Made by a program: the position numbers and the translations under genes | Shown: positions 13,422 to 39,039 of the stretch, in pieces | Layout of the letters: the number at the start of each line of letters is the position of its first letter | How positions within the stretch are numbered: the first letter of the stretch is position 1 | Source: Cyanosarcina radialis HA8281-LM2 | GTDB lineage: Bacteria; Cyanobacteriota; Cyanobacteriia; Cyanobacteriales; CCAP-1448 | Direction: 5' to 3' | DNA length: 64,000 bases | NCBI GenBank assembly: GCA_019359615.1 | Contig: JAHHHA010000012.1 | Location: 1-64,000, forward strand | Notes under the pieces: model-generated | The model's database searches: none | The model's input: the letters and a program-made list of their open reading frames with translations, nothing else | What the model was told of the DNA's origin: nothing

Positions 13422-13499
13422 AGTTCTTACATCGCTTGCATAATTTTTGGGGTTTGTCTCAAAAGAACATATAGACCAGATCGCGGAGGGAAATCGACC

Positions 13500-15131
13500 T
13501 TGAATCTAGATTGGTTCTATACCTTCCCCGTATTGGGGGACTATTATCGCATTCAATGGCAAATCGATGGGCAAGTACAACGCCATCTCGATCTGCTGCG
13601 ACATCGCCCAGAATTGGAGACTCCGGATCGATTATTGGAATTTTTACTCAGGAACATTATCGATCGTTCCAGCAGTAAGATCGCCAGCCAAGAGCGACTG
13701 AGTGGAGTTCGAGACTTACCCGCAGACTCTCAATGCAAGCTGTGTTACGCTTCGCCGCTTTCTAGGCAAGATAAGGGATCGCCTCCAACCGAGAACTGCG
13801 ATATATGTGGTTTTTGCATCAGTCATTTAGTGGCCTTTTTGTGCAGGTTTTGCGAGCCAGCAGCCAAGAAACTAGCGCGAGATTTGCAACTTTGGGGTCA
13901 ACTGAGCGATCCTGCTACATATTTCTCAGAACTTTTCCAGATTGCTTTGGGAATAGCCAGCCACCCTCAAGTATTTTTCCAATCCTTCAATCTTCAGCGA
14001 TTAGACTCCTTAGAGGGTTACATTCATACGCGGATGAGGGGGATAGTGCGTAAAGCCATAGCCAAAATGCCCAGCATGAGTACCTTTGGTCTGAGTAACT
14101 TGGGTTTGGCGGCTAGAAGCTCTCCCAAAGAGGTAAATGAATCGTTGGCACATTTGGCAATCGCCGAATCTCAAAGATGTGAGTTTATGGTGCTGCACCA
14201 ATGTCTTCAGGAAGTCAGACAGGCTTCTAATGTAGGGGTAAATGAATTTGAACGGCAGCATTTTCAACAGATTGCCGAGCTTTACGAACGGCGAGTGATA
14301 TCAAATCCGATTTTCATCCCACCCATTCAGCCCTCACCCCCAACCCCTCTCCCAAGCTTGGGAGAGGGGAGCCGGAAGTTCATTGAGGTCAAGAAGGTTT
14401 TGGAAACCGGATTTAGTATGGGTTCGTCTGAATCTTTGACTGCTGTGCGAGTAGAAGAACTTCTCAGAGAGATTGGTAATGCTATTAGGAAATATCGCGA
14501 TCGCTCTGTTAGCTCTATAGATAAACCCTGTTTTGATGGAGAAAATAGCGCCACCTCTTGTTTGTGGATCGATCGCCTCGAAGATCCTGGCTCTACTTTA
14601 GATACTAGTAGCCTGCAAATACAAGAATTTGATGAATATCTCGAACGAGGGGTAAACGAACTAGAGAAAACCCTGCATCAAATTCCCTTATTAATGCACG
14701 TTTGTCAGCTAAATGAAAATCAAATTGCTACAGAATTAAATTGCAGTCAATCTACCGTCAATCGTCGTTATTGGAGTATATTAAAAACCCTGATGCTTTA
14801 CTTGCAAAAGCAAAAATATTGGCAGATACAATCCCTGAAGCAGCTACTAGAAAATCTAAGTGCTGAAAACATCAAACAGATAAAAAAGATTGCAAAAGAA
14901 ATTTTAGAGTCGCACTATCAAAGAGTAATCGATCGCTTTTTTCAAGCATCGATCGAGGAGCTTGCTACTAGCATATCTATGACGGAACAGCCAGATGAAT
15001 TCAGGCGATCGCTCGTCCAACAACTGACCGAAAAAATTCAAGAATATATCGCTCTACCTTTAAAGCCTAACGGTGCAGCTTCAGACAAAATTACTTGGTT
15101 GGTTGACAGCCGATTAGAAAATTGGTCGTAA
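13500..15131 (+). CDS. Sigma-70-like / HTH regulatory protein of a CHAT-associated operon
   Basis: This 543-residue protein starts at TTG 13500, supported by GGAGG at 13486-13490. The helical C-terminal part includes a sigma region-4-like HTH (LNENQIATELNCSQSTVNRRYWSILKTL). Homologues of this kind are usually labelled sigma-factor-like and sit ahead of DUF1822 genes. Two unusual segments are seen. One is a Cys-rich stretch at about 79-120 (CKLC, CDICGFC, CRFC). The other is an in-frame repeat-derived stretch at about 267-307 (SPPTPLPSLGEG). Clear core-binding region 2 is not obvious, so true sigma activity is uncertain. Confidence 0.7.
   Translation: MNLDWFYTFPVLGDYYRIQWQIDGQVQRHLDLLRHRPELETPDRLLEFLLRNIIDRSSSKIASQERLSGVRDLPADSQCKLCYASPLSRQDKGSPPTENCDICGFCISHLVAFLCRFCEPAAKKLARDLQLWGQLSDPATYFSELFQIALGIASHPQVFFQSFNLQRLDSLEGYIHTRMRGIVRKAIAKMPSMSTFGLSNLGLAARSSPKEVNESLAHLAIAESQRCEFMVLHQCLQEVRQASNVGVNEFERQHFQQIAELYERRVISNPIFIPPIQPSPPTPLPSLGEGSRKFIEVKKVLETGFSMGSSESLTAVRVEELLREIGNAIRKYRDRSVSSIDKPCFDGENSATSCLWIDRLEDPGSTLDTSSLQIQEFDEYLERGVNELEKTLHQIPLLMHVCQLNENQIATELNCSQSTVNRRYWSILKTLMLYLQKQKYWQIQSLKQLLENLSAENIKQIKKIAKEILESHYQRVIDRFFQASIEELATSISMTEQPDEFRRSLVQQLTEKIQEYIALPLKPNGAASDKITWLVDSRLENWS
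14298..14420. repeat. Palindromic mosaic element inside a coding sequence
   Basis: The ends ATATCAAATCCG (14298) and CGGATTTAGTAT are near inverted repeats. The interior holds TCACCCCCAACCCCTCTCC paired with GGAGAGGGG around AAGCTT. The same element occurs between genes at 63219-63344 and, reversed, at 58445-58715. Here it is read in frame within the sigma-like gene. Confidence 0.8.
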
Positions 15132-15154
15132 TATTTACACTTAAGGAGAAAATC

Positions 15155-16546
15155 ATGAAATTGAGCCTGACAGCCTTAAAAAATTTGCTTTCCGAACATA
15201 TTTGGTTAGAATTTTCGGAAGCCGATCGAGAACGAGCTAAATCGGCAACCCAGAATTATTCTAATGAAACCGGACGTAACAATGCCTTTATCGATCGGTT
15301 GTGTTTGAATGCCTTGACTGCTTGGATGCAAGATAACTTGGAATTAGAAGATAGTCCAAGCGTATTTCCCGACGAGGCCAGTTTAGCCTCGATTTGGGAA
15401 GTGGTAAATGGCACGGCGATCGACTTAGGTAGCAAACGAATAGTTTTAATCCCCAGCGATGCTATCGATACAGAAGAGTTAGCCGTACCCCAAGAATGGG
15501 TGGATATTCCTAATTGGGCAGCCGATTATTATTTACCTGTGCGAGTAGATTTAGATAATCGATATCTCCATATTTGGGGATTTGTTTCGCGTCAGACATT
15601 AAAAGCTAAAAGCAATTACGAACCAATTTATCGCAGCTATCATTTAGATAGATATTACCTCATTGAAGATCTAGATGTGCTGTGGACTTCTCTGGATCTT
15701 TGCGACGAAAAAGGGAACGTAGAGAAGTTGCCAACCCTATCAAATATTGAAGCGAAAGATTTGATTGAGAAACTGAGTAAACCTTCTCCTTATTCGCCAC
15801 GTTTGGATGCGAAGTTTGAACAATGGGGGGCATTATTAAACGATCGCCGTTGGTTGCAAGAACTATACGAACGGAGACTATCTCTGGCGATTCCCACATT
15901 TTCTAATCGCTTAGTTCAACTCAGTAGTTGGTTAGATGGTGCGATCCAAACTGGTTGGCAAAATATTGAAGAGTTGTTGAGTATTAAGCCTTTAACTCCA
16001 GAATTTCGAGGTAAAACTGTAAAGGGAATCCAATTAGAAACATCAGAACAAATTCAAAAAGCGATCGCGCAGTTATACAACAGTCAAACTGAGGTAGCTT
16101 TTCCTGCAAATCTCAAAAGTGAAGAGGCTTTAGTTCATTTATTACAAAACACTAATAATGAAACTATTCGTTGGCAAGCAGCGGAATATTTGTGGGCGCT
16201 CGATCCTCATCATCCAGGAATTCCAGCTAGGAGAGTGAGGAATTTAGGGGTACAGCTTAAAGGAAACTCAGTCGCTTTAATGGTAGGAGTAATGCGTAAA
16301 CCTAATCGCCAAGTCGCGGTATTATTACGAGCATATCCCATGGGCGATCGCAATTACGTACCACCTGGGCTGCAATTGACTGGATTAGATGACAATGGGA
16401 CTCCCATTCCTAGATTGGAAGCCGTAGCTAGGAAGGAACCGCTAGATGAGTGCATTCAGTTATATTTTAGTGCTGATGTAGGCGATCGATTTGGGGTACG
16501 CGTTGCTTTAGAAAATGCGACGATCGCAGAACATTTTATGGTTTGA
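15155..16546 (+). CDS. DUF1822 family protein
   Basis: This 463-residue protein is typical of DUF1822, a cyanobacterial family of unknown function. The N-terminal half has the pattern RIVLIPSDAIDTEELAVPQEWVDIPNWAADYYLPVRVDLDNRYLHIWGF. The C-terminal quarter is a beta-rich module (VALMVGVMRKPNRQVAVLLRAYPMGDRNYVPPGLQL). The start at 15155 is set by AAGGAG 6 bases ahead. It follows the sigma-like gene by 23 bases and precedes the CHAT gene by 24 bases, so the three very likely form an operon. Confidence 0.88.
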   Translation: MKLSLTALKNLLSEHIWLEFSEADRERAKSATQNYSNETGRNNAFIDRLCLNALTAWMQDNLELEDSPSVFPDEASLASIWEVVNGTAIDLGSKRIVLIPSDAIDTEELAVPQEWVDIPNWAADYYLPVRVDLDNRYLHIWGFVSRQTLKAKSNYEPIYRSYHLDRYYLIEDLDVLWTSLDLCDEKGNVEKLPTLSNIEAKDLIEKLSKPSPYSPRLDAKFEQWGALLNDRRWLQELYERRLSLAIPTFSNRLVQLSSWLDGAIQTGWQNIEELLSIKPLTPEFRGKTVKGIQLETSEQIQKAIAQLYNSQTEVAFPANLKSEEALVHLLQNTNNETIRWQAAEYLWALDPHHPGIPARRVRNLGVQLKGNSVALMVGVMRKPNRQVAVLLRAYPMGDRNYVPPGLQLTGLDDNGTPIPRLEAVARKEPLDECIQLYFSADVGDRFGVRVALENATIAEHFMV

Positions 16547-16570
16547 ATCTTCAATCAACGGAGCATAAAC

Positions 16571-19204
16571 ATGATCGACATTAATTGGAGTAAAAATAGA
16601 CGTAAAAAAGTTATTTTTGAGATTAACGACAAAGGCAGTTTCGAGCAAGGTTTCGCAGTGAAACTCTTAATTAAAGATGAAGATAGCGGTAAGCTTCTAG
16701 CTAAAACTGAAGGTAATCTCTCTCCTACAATTGAAATTTTAGAACTCTATCAGCAATGGCAAAATCATTATCTCTCCTGGGGCAAAACATACCGATGGTG
16801 GGGAAGACAGATTGAAATTCCAGAAGAAATCATTACCAATATCTCCACTATAGATGAATGTCAAAGTGCGGCTATAGCTCTAGCAAAAGGTTTGAATAAA
16901 TGGCTCAAGCAGTCTGACTTAAACAAGATCGAACACACCTTATTAATGACAGTAAATCCTACCGATCTGGTTGCTGTTGAGTCTGTGCGTTTCATTCTCC
17001 AAACTCAAAGAATTGAATTACAGCGTCTTCCTTGGCACGAGTGGCATTTTTTACAAGAGAATTACTCAAACGCTGAAATGGCTCTAAGTATAAGCGAGAT
17101 CCCGCACAAACAACTTCCCACGCGACAAGTTAGAGTTCTAGCCATCTTGGGTAGCGATGAAAACATTGATATTGTAACTGACTTAAATTCTCTCAACAAA
17201 CACCTAAAACAAGTAGAGATCGATGTCATCAGAAACGAACATGATGCTCCATTGACTCGTAGCAAACTTAAGAATAAGTTGCGAAATTTAGTACAAAAGC
17301 AAAATTTAGATGTGATATTTTTTGCTGGACACTCTTCTTCCACTTTCTCTGAAGAATCGCTAGATATTCACCAGGTATCAACCGATTTACCCGTCAAGAT
17401 TTGGATTAGCAAGGAAGAATATTTCTCCCCTCTGGATGAAGGATTCAAAAACATTTTCAAGCAAGCAGTTAAAAAAGGCTTGAAGCTAGCGATCTTTAAT
17501 TCCTGCGATGGTTTGGGATTAGCAAGACAGCTAGCAGACTTACAGATTCCTCACATGGTTGTCTTCAAAGAACCCGTACATGACAAAGTAGCCCAAGCTT
17601 TTTTAGAGGAATTTTTGCAAAAATTTGCTACAGGTAGCCCCTTGCATTTAGCTGTTAATGAATCTCGCCAGTGGCTACAAGATGAATTAGAAGAAAATTC
17701 TCCTGGAGCCTCATATTTACCAGCCGTTTTTGTTAATCCTGAAGAACCACCATTTACCCTCAAAAGGTTTTCCATGCCTAAAATACCTCCGATAGTATAT
17801 GTAGTTTTGGGTGTTACCGCTCTAGGTTTAGGTTGGAATTTAGTAAGCCATCCTAAAAAAAATAGTGCATTACCTGGTGTTATGGTATCAGCTTGCGATC
17901 GACCAGGAGAACAAGACAATCCCTATTTTAGCTGCGGCGAAAATATACTATTAAAAGATCCCAATAAACAGCCTTTGGATGAAAAGAAAAATGGCACAGC
18001 AGCATTTGCGAGAGGCGATTACAAAGGAGCAATAAACTTTCTACAACAAGCATGGAATAAAGAGAAGGACCCCGAAACGCTTATTTACCTGAATAATGCG
18101 AGAATTGCTAATGAGAAAAATGTTAGAACTATAGCTGTAGCTATTCCTGCTTCAAACACTCCTATTTTGGTACCAACAAGTTTACTGAAAGGAGTTGCGG
18201 ATCGACAAGATAATTGGAATAATAACAAAGAAAATCCTTGGAAACTCCGCGTTACGATCGTAGACGATGGTAATGATGAAATTCAAGGACAGGAAGTAGC
18301 TCAAGAAATTGTAAAGCGTACTGAGATTCTGGTGGTTCAAGGACACTATAGCTCGCAAGTCACCATCCCAAATAAAGATATTTATCAGCAAAATAAAGTA
18401 GTGTCTATTAGTTCCACGGCGACGGCTGCTCAATTAACGTCTGGAGGAAACGATAATTTTTTCTTGAGAGTTGGATCTGTAAATCGATATGCTGGCGATG
18501 ATGTGGCAGATTATGTGGCTAAAAATCACAAGAAAATTGCTATATTTTATACTCCAGAAGATCCATTCAGTAAATCAATAACTGGAGAACTGGAAACACA
18601 TTTAAAAGGCGGAGTAGTAATAGTTAAGAAGTTTAACTTATCGCAGCATCCAGCCCAGGCAAAAAGTGAAATTGAACAGGCAAGGAAACTGGGAGCTACA
18701 GCTTTGATAGTGTTTCCTGGTGCTTACACTGCCAGGTACGAACAAGATCATGTATTAAAATTAGTCGAACAAAATAATGGTCAACAAGTAATAATTGGAA
18801 ATGAAGCTATATATGACAGCCATCTGTTAAAGCTAGGATTGCCAGCACTGAGTAAAATGGTCATTACTATTCCTTGGCATCCATTAGATAACAAGAATAA
18901 AAATCCACAATTGCTAAGCAAAGTGCCTGATTGGTGGGGATCTAAGAGTAATCTAAACTGGCGAATTATCTTATCTGCTGATGCCACAAAAGTTATTCTT
19001 ACAGCTTTATCTAACTCAGAACCAGATCGAGTTAAAATCCAGCAAGTTTTAGTTAATCCTAACTTTAAAACTGAAGGGATAACTGGCGACATTGGTTTTG
19101 ACGGAAGTAGCGATCGCCAGCAAAGAATAAACGTTCTAGTACAACCAGATTGCGATCTTGAGTCTAAGACTTGTTCTGGAGTTAAACCTATTTCCAACAA
19201 CTAA
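16571..19204 (+). CDS. CHAT protease - transmembrane - periplasmic ligand-binding fusion
   Basis: This 877-residue protein has several parts. Residues 1-~395 form a cytosolic caspase-like CHAT domain with the His-Cys dyad H254 (FFAGHSSS) and C312 (IFNSCDG). One membrane helix lies at about 405-425. A short TPR-like helical hairpin (FARGDYKGAINFLQQAW) comes next, then a type I periplasmic-binding fold (about 518-870: VQGHYSSQVTIP, VSISSTATAAQLT, IAIFYTPEDPFSKS) like the amino-acid receptor SBPs. The simplest reading is a membrane receptor that binds a small ligand outside and controls a protease inside. The ligand and the protease target are unknown. Confidence 0.88.
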   Translation: MIDINWSKNRRKKVIFEINDKGSFEQGFAVKLLIKDEDSGKLLAKTEGNLSPTIEILELYQQWQNHYLSWGKTYRWWGRQIEIPEEIITNISTIDECQSAAIALAKGLNKWLKQSDLNKIEHTLLMTVNPTDLVAVESVRFILQTQRIELQRLPWHEWHFLQENYSNAEMALSISEIPHKQLPTRQVRVLAILGSDENIDIVTDLNSLNKHLKQVEIDVIRNEHDAPLTRSKLKNKLRNLVQKQNLDVIFFAGHSSSTFSEESLDIHQVSTDLPVKIWISKEEYFSPLDEGFKNIFKQAVKKGLKLAIFNSCDGLGLARQLADLQIPHMVVFKEPVHDKVAQAFLEEFLQKFATGSPLHLAVNESRQWLQDELEENSPGASYLPAVFVNPEEPPFTLKRFSMPKIPPIVYVVLGVTALGLGWNLVSHPKKNSALPGVMVSACDRPGEQDNPYFSCGENILLKDPNKQPLDEKKNGTAAFARGDYKGAINFLQQAWNKEKDPETLIYLNNARIANEKNVRTIAVAIPASNTPILVPTSLLKGVADRQDNWNNNKENPWKLRVTIVDDGNDEIQGQEVAQEIVKRTEILVVQGHYSSQVTIPNKDIYQQNKVVSISSTATAAQLTSGGNDNFFLRVGSVNRYAGDDVADYVAKNHKKIAIFYTPEDPFSKSITGELETHLKGGVVIVKKFNLSQHPAQAKSEIEQARKLGATALIVFPGAYTARYEQDHVLKLVEQNNGQQVIIGNEAIYDSHLLKLGLPALSKMVITIPWHPLDNKNKNPQLLSKVPDWWGSKSNLNWRIILSADATKVILTALSNSEPDRVKIQQVLVNPNFKTEGITGDIGFDGSSDRQQRINVLVQPDCDLESKTCSGVKPISNN

Positions 19205-19347
19205 TAATTAATCCGGTTCATATTTAGTTTCCAAGAGAGTGGAGATTTAAGCTTTCTACAATTAACTATATATCTAGAACCAGAATAGTGCATTTTCTTT
19301 TCACTCTATCCCAATAAGATACTAAGTAGGTTAATAGGGTAAGAGAA

Positions 19348-20085
19348 ATGAAACAACTAATTCATTGGTTAATTGGTGAAGGCAAATTCAAACTCTTCAT
19401 ATATTGGTTGATTGGCGAAAAAGCTGGATTTGCCTTAGTAGGCATTTGGAATTGGTTGTGGGGAATTCCGGTAGAATCGGGTGGCAAGATTGCGGTAGAA
19501 GTGGCAGAAGAGTCTCTCGAAGCCATGCAAAGAACCGTGACACAACTAACTGAATCTGTAGCCACAGTTGTAGCAGCTTATCAGAAAGCACAACAGAAAT
19601 ATGCCGATCGATTGCAGGAGTTCAAACAGGCAGAAAATCAAGCATTATTTGCCCATCAACGAGGGAATGAAGAAGCTGCCAGATTAGCAATGAGTCGGGC
19701 AATTGCGATCGAACGCTTGCTTCCAAAAATTGCCGAACAAGTAGCTCAAGCTGAAAAAGTTGTAATTGCCTCTAAAGAAAAACTATATCGAGAACGAGAG
19801 AAATTAGAAGCTTATAAAACCGAGATGCAAAATCTCAAAGCTTTAGCAGAAATCAACGAAGCATTAGCTGCGATCGCCCAGATTGATAGTAGTTTAAACC
19901 TCGATTCAGCCCAGAATCAATTTGAGAACGCCCAATCAGCGGTTGAAGGGCGTTATCTGCAAGTCAATGCCCGTGCAGAACTTTCAGAAAGCCACGTTGA
20001 AAAGCTGCAAACCGATCTCGATCGCTTGACGCTTGACGAAGAAATTTCTCGTCGGTTGGCTCAATTGGACGTTGGAAAAAGCTAG
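19348..20085 (+). CDS. PspA/IM30-like coiled-coil membrane-associated protein
   Basis: In this 245-residue protein residues 1-50 are hydrophobic and Trp-rich (LIHWLIGE, FIYWLIGEKAGFALVGIWNWLWGIP) and should associate with membrane. Residues 50-245 are a long helical coiled coil. The segment LFAHQRGNEEAARLAMSRAIAIERLLPKIAEQVAQAEK resembles the PspA/IM30 (Vipp1) hairpin, which polymerises on stressed membranes. The match is by pattern, so family membership is moderate. It follows the CHAT gene by 143 bases in the same direction. Confidence 0.65.
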   Translation: MKQLIHWLIGEGKFKLFIYWLIGEKAGFALVGIWNWLWGIPVESGGKIAVEVAEESLEAMQRTVTQLTESVATVVAAYQKAQQKYADRLQEFKQAENQALFAHQRGNEEAARLAMSRAIAIERLLPKIAEQVAQAEKVVIASKEKLYREREKLEAYKTEMQNLKALAEINEALAAIAQIDSSLNLDSAQNQFENAQSAVEGRYLQVNARAELSESHVEKLQTDLDRLTLDEEISRRLAQLDVGKS

Positions 20086-24806: not shown

Positions 24807-26156
24807 CTAAGAGTAAGAAATTGGCAATCCCAATCGATCGCTCAATTCGGTAGCCAGCCAATAGAGTTCTTCCGATGTCAGCGGATGATTCATAAACAGT
24901 TCGTATTTTCCTTTTTTAGTTATAATAATTAAATTCGATCTCATTTCGAGGTGGCAAAGATCCGCTCTTGGCGACGGGCGACTATATGGCCATTTTATTC
25001 CTAGCAACTCATTAGTCACAGAAATTTTCTCGCGATCGATCTGCAATCTAATTTGCCGAAATAAACCCCATAAGATTAATCTTAGCAAGAAAGCTGCTAG
25101 GCCTAGATCTAAGAAAATTAAAATAATTTCATTATAAGTAATAGACCAGTGAATTATCCAGAACAACAGCGGGGTAACAAATGAAATCAGAGCGATCGCG
25201 CCAAATCCTAAACCTTCTGGTGGAATTAAAATTTCGAGTAAATCGGCTTTTTTGGTTAATAGGACTTCGCTACCTGCTGGTTGCTTCACCACTGGTACTA
25301 GTTGAGGTCTAGGTTGAGGATTTTGTAGGGCTTCTAATGCCTGACTAGCCGAACTCAACCGTTTCTCTAAACTCGGTTCTGTCATCCACTCTAACCAACT
25401 AATAAAATCTCGATCGATAGATCTTCCTGTCAATATTTGCCGAAATTGAATCCGAAAGTCTTGCTGGGGTAGTTCTGTCGGATGCAAGCCAGTAATTACA
25501 TAGATTAATGTGGCTCCCAAGCTATACAAATCGGAAGCCGGAGTCGTGCGTCCGCCAAATTGTTCTGGGGGCATATATCCATAAGTACCGACAACCGTAA
25601 TCGTTCCTCCTTCCTTAGCCGCTAGAGTTTGCACGGAACCGAAATCAACTAAATAAACTTGACCGATACTATTACCAGAACGCTCTGTCAGCAAGATATT
25701 ACTTGGTTTAATATCTCGGTGAATTACAGGTGGTTGTCTCCTTTGAAGATAAATCAAAATTTCTAACAACAATTTGGCTAATTCTTTAACTTCTTCATTG
25801 CTAAAAGTCCGTCCGGATTTCAGATGTTCTTCTAAAGATTTACCTGCAATATAACTTTGAACTAGAGCGAAACTTTTATGGTGAGGTTCGTCGATCTCTA
25901 GGTAATCGACATAGCAGGGAATTGCCGGGTGAGAAAGTGCTTGTAGGGTTTGAGCTTCGCGTTCAAATAACTTGAGGTGTTGCCACTCAAAATCTTCGCT
26001 CAAAAGTAGCAGCTTGACGACAACTAATTCTTGAGTTTCTAAATTGCGAGCTAGCAGCGTTTCTCTTCCTACTCTTTCTCCCAATCGTTGCAGAACTTGA
26101 TAGCGTCCTCCTATCAGTTCGGGAAATGATTCATTTAAGGCGCGATCGATCGTCAT
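24807..26156 (-). CDS. Serine/threonine protein kinase with membrane-anchored tail
   Basis: This 449-residue Hanks-type kinase has catalytic Lys K48 (VVVKLL), catalytic loop VIHRDIKPSNILL, VDFGSV, and the activation-segment end GTYGYMPPEQFGGR. The glycine loop is degenerate (LGERVGRETLLA). After ~290 residues come two membrane helices (about 318-375) and a ~75-residue cytosolic tail. It is paralogous to the next gene and lies 56 bases downstream of it, so the pair probably arose by tandem duplication. Confidence 0.92.
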   Translation of the reverse strand: MTIDRALNESFPELIGGRYQVLQRLGERVGRETLLARNLETQELVVVKLLLLSEDFEWQHLKLFEREAQTLQALSHPAIPCYVDYLEIDEPHHKSFALVQSYIAGKSLEEHLKSGRTFSNEEVKELAKLLLEILIYLQRRQPPVIHRDIKPSNILLTERSGNSIGQVYLVDFGSVQTLAAKEGGTITVVGTYGYMPPEQFGGRTTPASDLYSLGATLIYVITGLHPTELPQQDFRIQFRQILTGRSIDRDFISWLEWMTEPSLEKRLSSASQALEALQNPQPRPQLVPVVKQPAGSEVLLTKKADLLEILIPPEGLGFGAIALISFVTPLLFWIIHWSITYNEIILIFLDLGLAAFLLRLILWGLFRQIRLQIDREKISVTNELLGIKWPYSRPSPRADLCHLEMRSNLIIITKKGKYELFMNHPLTSEELYWLATELSDRLGLPISYS

Positions 26157-38205: not shown

Positions 38206-39039
38206 CTACTTACTGCCTGTAAAAGTAATACCTCGAATAAAATAGCGATTGAAAAAGGCATAAATGGCTAGCGGTGGTAAAGTAAACACCATAGATGCAG
38301 CCATAATATAATTCCAATACGTGATGTATTGTCCCTTGAATTTATTTAAACCCAGAGGAAGAGTAAACAGTTCTTCATCAAAAGAGATTACTAAGGGAGT
38401 TAAGAAGTTATTCCAAGAAGCCATAAAAATAAAGATTGCTTGCGCGGCTAAAGCAGGTTTAGCTAAAGGTAAAACTACTTGCCAAAAAGTTTCCCTCGAA
38501 TTCAATCCATCTAAGGCGGCAGCTTCTTCTAATTCTTTAGGGAAATTCAGGAAAAATTGTCGCATCATAAAAATAAAGGTAGCATTTACTACGTTGGGTA
38601 TAATTAAACCCTGATAAGAATTTAACCATCCCAGAGATTTCAAGATTAAAAAATTAGGAATTAAGGTAATTTGTCCGGGAATCATTAAAACTGCCAAAAT
38701 TATCAAAAACCAAAATTTATTACCTGGAAATCGCATTCTAGCTAAAGCGTAACCAGCCATAGAATTAAATAAGATATTAAAGCCCGTAACGAAAATAGCC
38801 ACCACGATACTATTGAGCAACCATCGACCGAACAAAGGCTCTTTAAAAAAAATTTCTTTGTAGTTATCTAAAGTAAAACTGTGTGGAATAAAATTTAAGC
38901 CAGTAGCAGAAATTTCTGCTAAAGATTTAAAAGAAGCAGATAATGCCCACAAAAAAGGAATAACTGTAACGATCGCATACAAGCAGAGAATGATATAGAG
39001 AATTATTTTGAGGTTAAAAGATTTTCGTATGTAGTTCAT
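38206..39039 (-). CDS. Sugar ABC transporter permease, MalG type
   Basis: This 277-residue protein has six predicted membrane helices. The EAA loop that docks the ATPase reads ELEEAAALDGLNSRETFWQVVLPLAKPAL, and VIPFLWALSASFKS is typical of MalG/UgpE permeases. It is encoded 27 bases after its MalF-type partner. Neither the ATPase nor the binding protein is in the window, so the sugar is unknown. Confidence 0.92.
   Translation of the reverse strand: MNYIRKSFNLKIILYIILCLYAIVTVIPFLWALSASFKSLAEISATGLNFIPHSFTLDNYKEIFFKEPLFGRWLLNSIVVAIFVTGFNILFNSMAGYALARMRFPGNKFWFLIILAVLMIPGQITLIPNFLILKSLGWLNSYQGLIIPNVVNATFIFMMRQFFLNFPKELEEAAALDGLNSRETFWQVVLPLAKPALAAQAIFIFMASWNNFLTPLVISFDEELFTLPLGLNKFKGQYITYWNYIMAASMVFTLPPLAIYAFFNRYFIRGITFTGSK

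Follow-up and report, generated by a model that had tools for sequence, protein, structure and literature searches.

A Four-Gene Locus with a Receptor-Type CHAT Protease

We analyzed a locus of four genes within a 64,000-nucleotide (nt) stretch of the Cyanosarcina radialis HA8281-LM2 genome (positions 1 to 64,000 of contig JAHHHA010000012.1; "the window" hereafter). In order, the genes encode a sigma-like protein, a protein of the DUF1822 family, a CHAT protease fused to a receptor-like C-terminal part, and a PspA-like coiled-coil protein (Table 1), with intergenic gaps of 23, 24, and 143 bases. An initial annotation had described these co-directional genes as a single module, and the open reading frame coordinates and domain matches agree with the four genes and the places it gave.

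Table 1. Coordinates of genes, domains, and predicted regulatory sites of the locus within the window.
Feature	Position	Strand	Evidence or remark
Predicted promoter of the sigma operon, TGCATAATTTTTGGGGTTTGTCTCAAA (-35-like TGCATA, 15 nt, -10-like CTCAAA)	13437..13463	+	36 nt before the start codon; best position weight matrix (PWM) hit in 64 kb
Sigma-like protein, 543 amino acids (aa), TTG start	13500..15131	+	TIGR02937 in 33/33 family-alignment members, best expect value (E) 4.3e-32; PDB region 4 matches to FliA/SigF/RpoE
Cysteine-rich insert of the sigma-like protein	13742-13810	+	Absent from relatives; no other copy in the genome
In-frame dispersed repeat CCCTCACCCCCAACCCCTCTCCC... in the linker between sigma regions 2 and 4	14330..14369	+	Absent from relatives; insertion in the alignment
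DUF1822 protein, 463 aa, proposed anti-sigma factor and protease substrate	15155..16546	+	PF08852, 278 bits
Disordered DUF1822 linker, residues 276-290, motif F284-R285-G286, candidate cleavage site	15980..16024	+	Predicted local distance difference test (pLDDT) <50
Codon of DUF1822 Arg285	16007-16009	+	
CHAT receptor-protease, whole gene	16571-19204	+	
N-terminal alpha+beta domain, residues 1-141	16571..16993	+	AlphaFold2 model; alignment
CHAT protease domain, residues 142-375; His254 (17330-17332), Cys312 (17504-17506)	16994..17695	+	PF12770
Predicted transmembrane helix, about residues 407-425	17789..17845	+	Hydrophobic stretch; low model confidence around helix 407-420
Outer ligand-binding domain, type-1 periplasmic binding protein	18116..19201	+	PF13458; follows a TPR-like helical linker
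Predicted promoter of the pspA-like gene, TGCATTTTCTTTTCACTCTATCCCAAT	19289..19315	+	32 nt before ATG; third-best PWM hit in the window
PspA-like coiled-coil protein, 245 aa	19348..20085	+	PF04012 (PspA_IM30), 43.2 bits, cut-off 33.9

The sigma-like protein has a divergent region 2 near residues 150-190, a long linker, a region 4 at about residues 380-430, and a C-terminal extension. Its match to the sigma70-ECF (extracytoplasmic function) profile TIGR02937 has an E of 5.6e-10, just under the cut-off, and region 4 is matched at residues 380-423. The region 2 signal is weak, both in the relative L266 (Sigma70_r2, E 9.6e-4, below the cut-off) and in a profile match to 8b3z, a chain with sigma region 2 (E 0.016).

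A Sigma, DUF1822, and CHAT Trio Recurs in Cyanobacteria

DUF1822 is present in 240 of the 386 cyanobacterial genomes sampled, although weak single matches in a small-genome group (f32) account for many of these. The 6.5 Mb genome that holds the window has five DUF1822 genes, along with four genes for CHAT proteases of the EACC2 type, each of which lies in the region of one DUF1822 gene. The N-terminal domain of the CHAT protein is conserved, and is likened here to the published EACC2 domain by position and type only.

Gene order was compared in a DUF1822-centred sample (60 fetched loci, 63 DUF1822 genes) and in a long-type sample (80 named loci, 81 DUF1822 genes). Directly upstream of DUF1822 there is a sigma gene in 52/63 and 77/81 cases, respectively, and directly downstream an EACC2-CHAT gene in 28/63 and 58/81. 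Approached from the protease side, DUF1822 stands directly upstream in 26 of 34 CHAT-centred loci. The three genes thus recur in the same order across cyanobacteria, with median gaps of 19 and 32 nt. These co-occurrence counts, together with the paired DUF1822 and EACC2-CHAT regions of this genome, led us to reject a chance neighborhood, and it is virtually certain that the trio is one functional unit.

Three gene sets can be distinguished. The first consists of a sigma gene and DUF1822 alone, and the second of a sigma protein of ~220 aa, a DUF1822 protein of ~330 aa, and CHAT. The window belongs to the third, which joins a sigma protein of 390-630 aa to a DUF1822 protein of ~400-500 aa and CHAT. 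Of 25 sigma genes of the ~220-aa size from other loci, 8 match sigma70-ECF at an E of 0.01 or better, with both regions covered in one shown. At L073, L078, and L138, a short DUF1822-like gene is paired with a gene for a ~230-aa protein that has no match to sigma profiles.

The initial annotation called the system undescribed, which fails for the trio because Kaur et al. (2021, eLife 10:e70394, PMC8195603) had already predicted it as a conflict system activated by proteolysis; the trio of the window is a member of their system. In the accessible portion of that paper, to which all our statements about it refer, a constant EACC2 domain is combined with a caspase domain and variable C termini, and most neighborhoods without TRADD-N also encode an ECF sigma factor and DUF1822. 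Its proposal runs from stimulus sensing through autopeptidase activation to a transcriptional step, with a counter-invader function given as a prediction. The window shares with it the three genes, an N-terminal alpha+beta domain joined to a caspase-like protease, a variable sensor, and a logic of sensing, proteolysis, and transcription. However, a PspA-like partner, a promoter motif, target genes, and a cut site are not named in that portion, and DUF1822 is called a TPR protein there, whereas our model comprises an alpha/beta domain, HEAT-like helices, and a beta-sandwich.

The Protease Is Fused to a Predicted LivK-Like Receptor Domain

The AlphaFold2 model of the CHAT protein (pLDDT 81) comprises the alpha+beta domain, the CHAT domain, a low-confidence helix, a helical linker, and a type-1 binding-protein fold. 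Two further claims of the initial annotation are upheld by this protein. The His and Cys of the catalytic dyad are intact, as they are in 129 of 129 relatives, and the ligand-sensing domain proposed to lie outside the cell corresponds to a C-terminal fold of the type found in LivK and metabotropic glutamate receptors (mGluRs). Specifically, Peripla_BP_6 matches residues 540-849, and the best solved structural matches of the outer domain are the LivK/LivJ leucine-binding proteins and mGluRs (VIA-align against LivK 3td9: Z 33.8, root-mean-square deviation 2.8, 330 residues). In addition, two cysteine pairs recur in the outer part of many relatives, one within ACD...SCGE and the other as DC...C near the C terminus, a pattern that fits a predicted oxidizing outer compartment.

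Among 68 CHAT relatives scanned, the most frequent C-terminal sensors are CHASE2 (28), Peripla_BP_6 (16), and nSTAND1 (9), followed by TPR, NACHT, Macro, HEAT, and WD40. Because this sensor varies, the front end appears to serve as the input and the trio as the common output. In a tree built from 100 CHAT domains, 3 changes suffice to explain the receptor-type label, compared to ~27 when labels are shuffled. This low number indicates that the receptor-type CHAT proteins are a coherent lineage, and frequent sensor swapping was rejected for this type on the same grounds.

Variations on this layout are seen elsewhere. Two or three CHAT-receptor genes follow a single sigma-DUF1822 pair in tandem at L189, L190, L191, and L192, forming a receptor array with one output. 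At L127-L130 and L140, this receptor cassette occurs as a fusion with other N-terminal parts, which are ~350 residues long and lack CHAT.

A Promoter Motif Is Common to the Sigma Operon and the pspA-Like Gene

The sigma gene is preceded by the motif TGCATA-N15-CYCAAT, a promoter motif of the ECF type, both in the window and in the relatives L171 and L189-L192. With the same spacing, the motif also stands before the pspA-like gene of the window, L169, L170, and L171. A PWM was built from the sigma-gene promoters of five relatives, with the window sequence left out. Its top three hits in the window are at 13437, 38480, and 19289, and the next score is 5 bits lower. The hit at 38480, which lies inside a gene of the other strand, is taken as chance.

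When the PWM was applied to 1,854 gene upstreams of the fetched loci, the pspA-like genes of L169, L193, L170, and L171 ranked 6, 7, 9, and 10, with the L169 GRDP-like gene and the L169 and L171 kinases likewise near the top. The two sites of the window ranked 16 and 18, and a score of 17 or more is reached by about 1% of genes. The distance from motif to ATG before the pspA-like gene is 32 nt in four species. Other PspA-like genes score below 10, although a weaker site, TGCATT, is found in L077 at an equal distance of 32 nt.

The 6.5 Mb genome contains exactly three consensus matches, two of which (before the sigma and pspA-like genes) are there by construction because the window sites were known when the consensus was drawn up; a reversed control gave 0. 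The third exact site (G000:C54 near 1920, locus L276) lies beside a GRDP-like gene and before a gene for a 122-aa protein with a signal-like start. In relatives, the motif also precedes genes for a Ser/Thr kinase, a GRDP-like protein, and a subtilase-like protein. All three exact sites of genome G475 and three of the four in G416 fall within the cluster. In G435, one exact site is located 47 nt before the orthologous kinase gene on a contig other than that of the sigma cluster, and this placement is hard to explain without a shared regulator. The sigma factor very probably reads TGCATA-N15-CYCAAT, as judged from these sequence patterns, and its predicted motif is conserved upstream of its own gene in the window and close relatives, as autoregulation would require.

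A Ser/Thr kinase gene of the window (24807-26156, reverse strand) encodes a protein 44% identical to the motif-bearing kinase of relatives, with no upstream site among the matches listed. A distinct element, AAAGTTTTGTAA, is common to the pspA-like upstreams of the class-B loci L072, L136, and L178. It resembles a common cyanobacterial light-response motif, and it was not found in the same form upstream of the class-B sigma genes themselves. For both reasons it is set aside as evidence. Alignments of the upstream regions of other sigma clades revealed no clear common motif, save a few CCCAAT-type sites.

The PspA-Like Gene Is Associated with Receptor-Type Loci

The four-gene module of the initial annotation is only partly retained: the first three genes are a real unit, whereas the PspA-like gene is no general member but is tied to the receptor-type version. 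Its proposed place in the same circuit is supported by the promoter motif that it has in common with the sigma operon. Among 130 EACC2-CHAT loci not selected for PspA, the window-type PspA is present in 5 of 23 receptor-type loci versus 0 of 107 others (Fisher p 1.2e-4, uncorrected for relatedness), and further cases were reached from the PspA side (L169, L170, L171, and L178). All module-linked PspA-like proteins included in the tree form one clade (SH-aLRT 99), and the protein of L188, which has binding-protein neighbors only, falls outside it. Clusters of relatives also hold a standalone binding protein, a Ser/Thr kinase, and a GRDP-like protein. The association of PspA with receptor-type loci is new as far as the literature could be searched.

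It could be argued that the pspA-like gene is an unrelated neighbor that merely lies 3' of the operon, given the 143-base gap, the absence of the gene from most trio loci, and the occurrence of the PspA family elsewhere, for example adjoining PstS-like genes. However, the restriction to receptor-type loci, the single clade, and a common promoter motif whose 32-nt distance is constant in four species make this explanation highly improbable, and we regard membership of the pspA-like gene in the sigma regulon as very likely.

Two side observations concern this gene. PspA-like cousins at L174 and L176 adjoin a PstS-like binding protein, and at L174 are preceded by fabH- and fabD-like genes; other loci have a similar layout, as judged from gene length alone. 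At L193 (Iningainema tapete), the locus is a decaying copy in which the CHAT-receptor and pspA-like frames are split and both promoter sites are kept.

The predicted targets also bear on the possibility that this is chiefly an anti-phage or abortive-infection system whose sigma factor switches on defense genes. Such a role would be consistent with the family's predicted counter-invader function (PMC8195603), with the action of CHAT proteases in Craspase defense (PMC10028731), and with the STAND, NACHT, TPR, and Macro sensors of other members. The window member, however, appears to sense from outside through an amino-acid-type receptor, and no nucleases are among the targets predicted for it, which comprise a membrane protein, a kinase, and secreted-looking proteins. 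PADLOC gave no match for the four proteins, and the flanking genes look like ordinary housekeeping genes. No defense-island context was seen by these two approaches; a phage-defense island was rejected on this basis, and we consider a chiefly anti-phage function unlikely.

DUF1822 Carries a Candidate Cleavage Site

The AlphaFold2 model of the DUF1822 protein (pLDDT 85) begins with an alpha/beta domain, which a flexible linker (residues 276-290) separates from HEAT-like helices and a C-terminal immunoglobulin-like beta-sandwich. The C-terminal domain has middling beta-sandwich matches in the PDB (for example, Z 7.8). No anti-sigma or Csx30 fold is found among the PDB matches listed for the model, which does not thereby exclude a likeness to Csx30.

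A hydrophobic-Arg-small (Ser/Gly) motif is present in the linkers of 82% of 92 CHAT-linked DUF1822 proteins, versus 30% after shuffling (shuffle maximum 42%). FR alone is found in 67% versus 13%, with FR-S and FR-G the commonest forms in a linker that is otherwise variable. Clan CD proteases, including separase, metacaspases, and MALT1, frequently take arginine at P1. The conserved motif favors DUF1822 as the partner that would be cut, and we put the chance that CHAT cuts this linker at about even. That DUF1822 is an anti-sigma factor seems somewhat more probable.

Alternatively, the protease might cut the sigma protein or itself, with DUF1822 acting as an adaptor or scaffold that joins sigma factor and protease. 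The long variable linker and C-terminal extension of the sigma protein could be auto-inhibitory, DUF1822 has modules of the interaction type (HEAT-like helices and a beta-sandwich), and autopeptidase activation is proposed in the accessible portion of Kaur et al. (PMC8195603). Nevertheless, the conserved motif in a disordered linker belongs to DUF1822, and sigma-DUF1822 pairs without CHAT exist, as for a sigma/anti-sigma pair. We therefore judge this alternative to be rather unlikely, and retain DUF1822 as the preferred substrate.

Proposed Mechanism and Related Systems

We propose, with a probability of roughly 0.55, that a membrane-spanning receptor-protease controls the sigma factor through a cut in DUF1822, and that the regulon includes the sigma factor's own operon and the pspA-like gene. 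The outer domain would bind a small ligand, probably an amino acid or a related compound, a class that we infer because the fold is LivK/mGluR-like. Binding would act through one transmembrane helix to activate the inner CHAT protease, which would then cut DUF1822 after the conserved Arg of the flexible linker (Arg285 here). Until this cut, DUF1822 would hold the sigma factor inactive. Once freed, the sigma factor would read the TGCATA-N15-CYCAAT promoters of its own operon, creating positive feedback, and of the pspA-like gene, whose product may guard or remodel the membrane.

Several observations weigh against this proposal. Sigma-DUF1822 loci without CHAT are common, and DUF1822 has no sequence or fold match to an anti-sigma factor among the matches listed. 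The linker motif is not exclusive to CHAT-linked proteins, as 55% of 22 DUF1822 genes that do not adjoin CHAT hold it; the linkers of CHAT-less loci often contain Arg-Ser/Gly, and the motif could therefore serve another purpose. Regarding the promoter, only 5 of 77 family sigma genes with CHAT in the locus have a PWM score of 10 or more, one of them that of the window (Mann-Whitney p 0.02). Since most family sigma genes score low, the clades seem to differ in promoter specificity. In the three class-B loci that have a pspA-like gene, the TGCATA motif is missing upstream of that gene. Finally, the motif was spotted by eye before the PWM was made, and the relatives are not independent.

A working parallel is the Craspase or DiCASP system (Csx29 TPR-CHAT, Csx30, and CASP-sigma; PMC10028731), in which a CHAT protease was shown to cut the inhibitor of a sigma factor. 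Both systems link a CHAT protease to an inhibitor and an ECF sigma factor, if DUF1822 is indeed the inhibitor, and the type III-E sigma model NF041236 gives weak scores for three relatives of the long-sigma type and for one of the short type. However, the trigger for Craspase is a target RNA recognized via Cas7-11, whereas here a membrane receptor is fused to the protease. DUF1822 has no similarity to Csx30 among the matches listed, and the working likeness is by analogy only.

RseA/DegS and RsiW proteolysis (described in PMC10028731) likewise combine an envelope-side signal, proteolysis of an inhibitor, and release of an ECF sigma factor. In contrast, the substrate proposed here is soluble, and the receptor itself is the protease. 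As in the Psp envelope-stress response (PMC11237479), a PspA-family protein would be under a dedicated regulator, but induction is predicted here to proceed via a CHAT-linked sigma factor. A term search of the accessible text of that survey of PspA partners found no CHAT domain or caspase partner.

More tentatively, the components may together constitute a form of proteolytic envelope or neighbor sensing, in which a one-protein receptor-protease senses an extracellular amino-acid-like ligand, cuts DUF1822 after Arg, and frees the sigma factor for a regulon with a PspA-type guardian. We did not find such a route described for any bacterium in the literature searched, and the promoter motif and candidate cut site are new as far as the literature could be searched.

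The operons of DUF1822 and CHAT-sigma genes are present in many copies in cyanobacteria and have been unexplained. If the proposal is true, this family gains a concrete output, defined by a promoter and its predicted targets, as well as a cut site for mutation and a ligand class for screening, and bacterial caspase-like proteases would be linked to envelope care rather than to cell death only. The promoter and the linker Arg make the pathway testable by reporter and cleavage assays.

Other Features of the Gene Family

The sigma-like protein of the window carries a dispersed repeat, such that more than 30 places in the genome match its residues ~250-313. Outside the window, a recurring extension of the locus is seen at L207, L204, L237, and L240, where the CHAT gene is followed on its 3' side by a gene for a ~240-aa protein with a signal-like start and by a convergent long gene whose product has a C-terminal CHAT domain.

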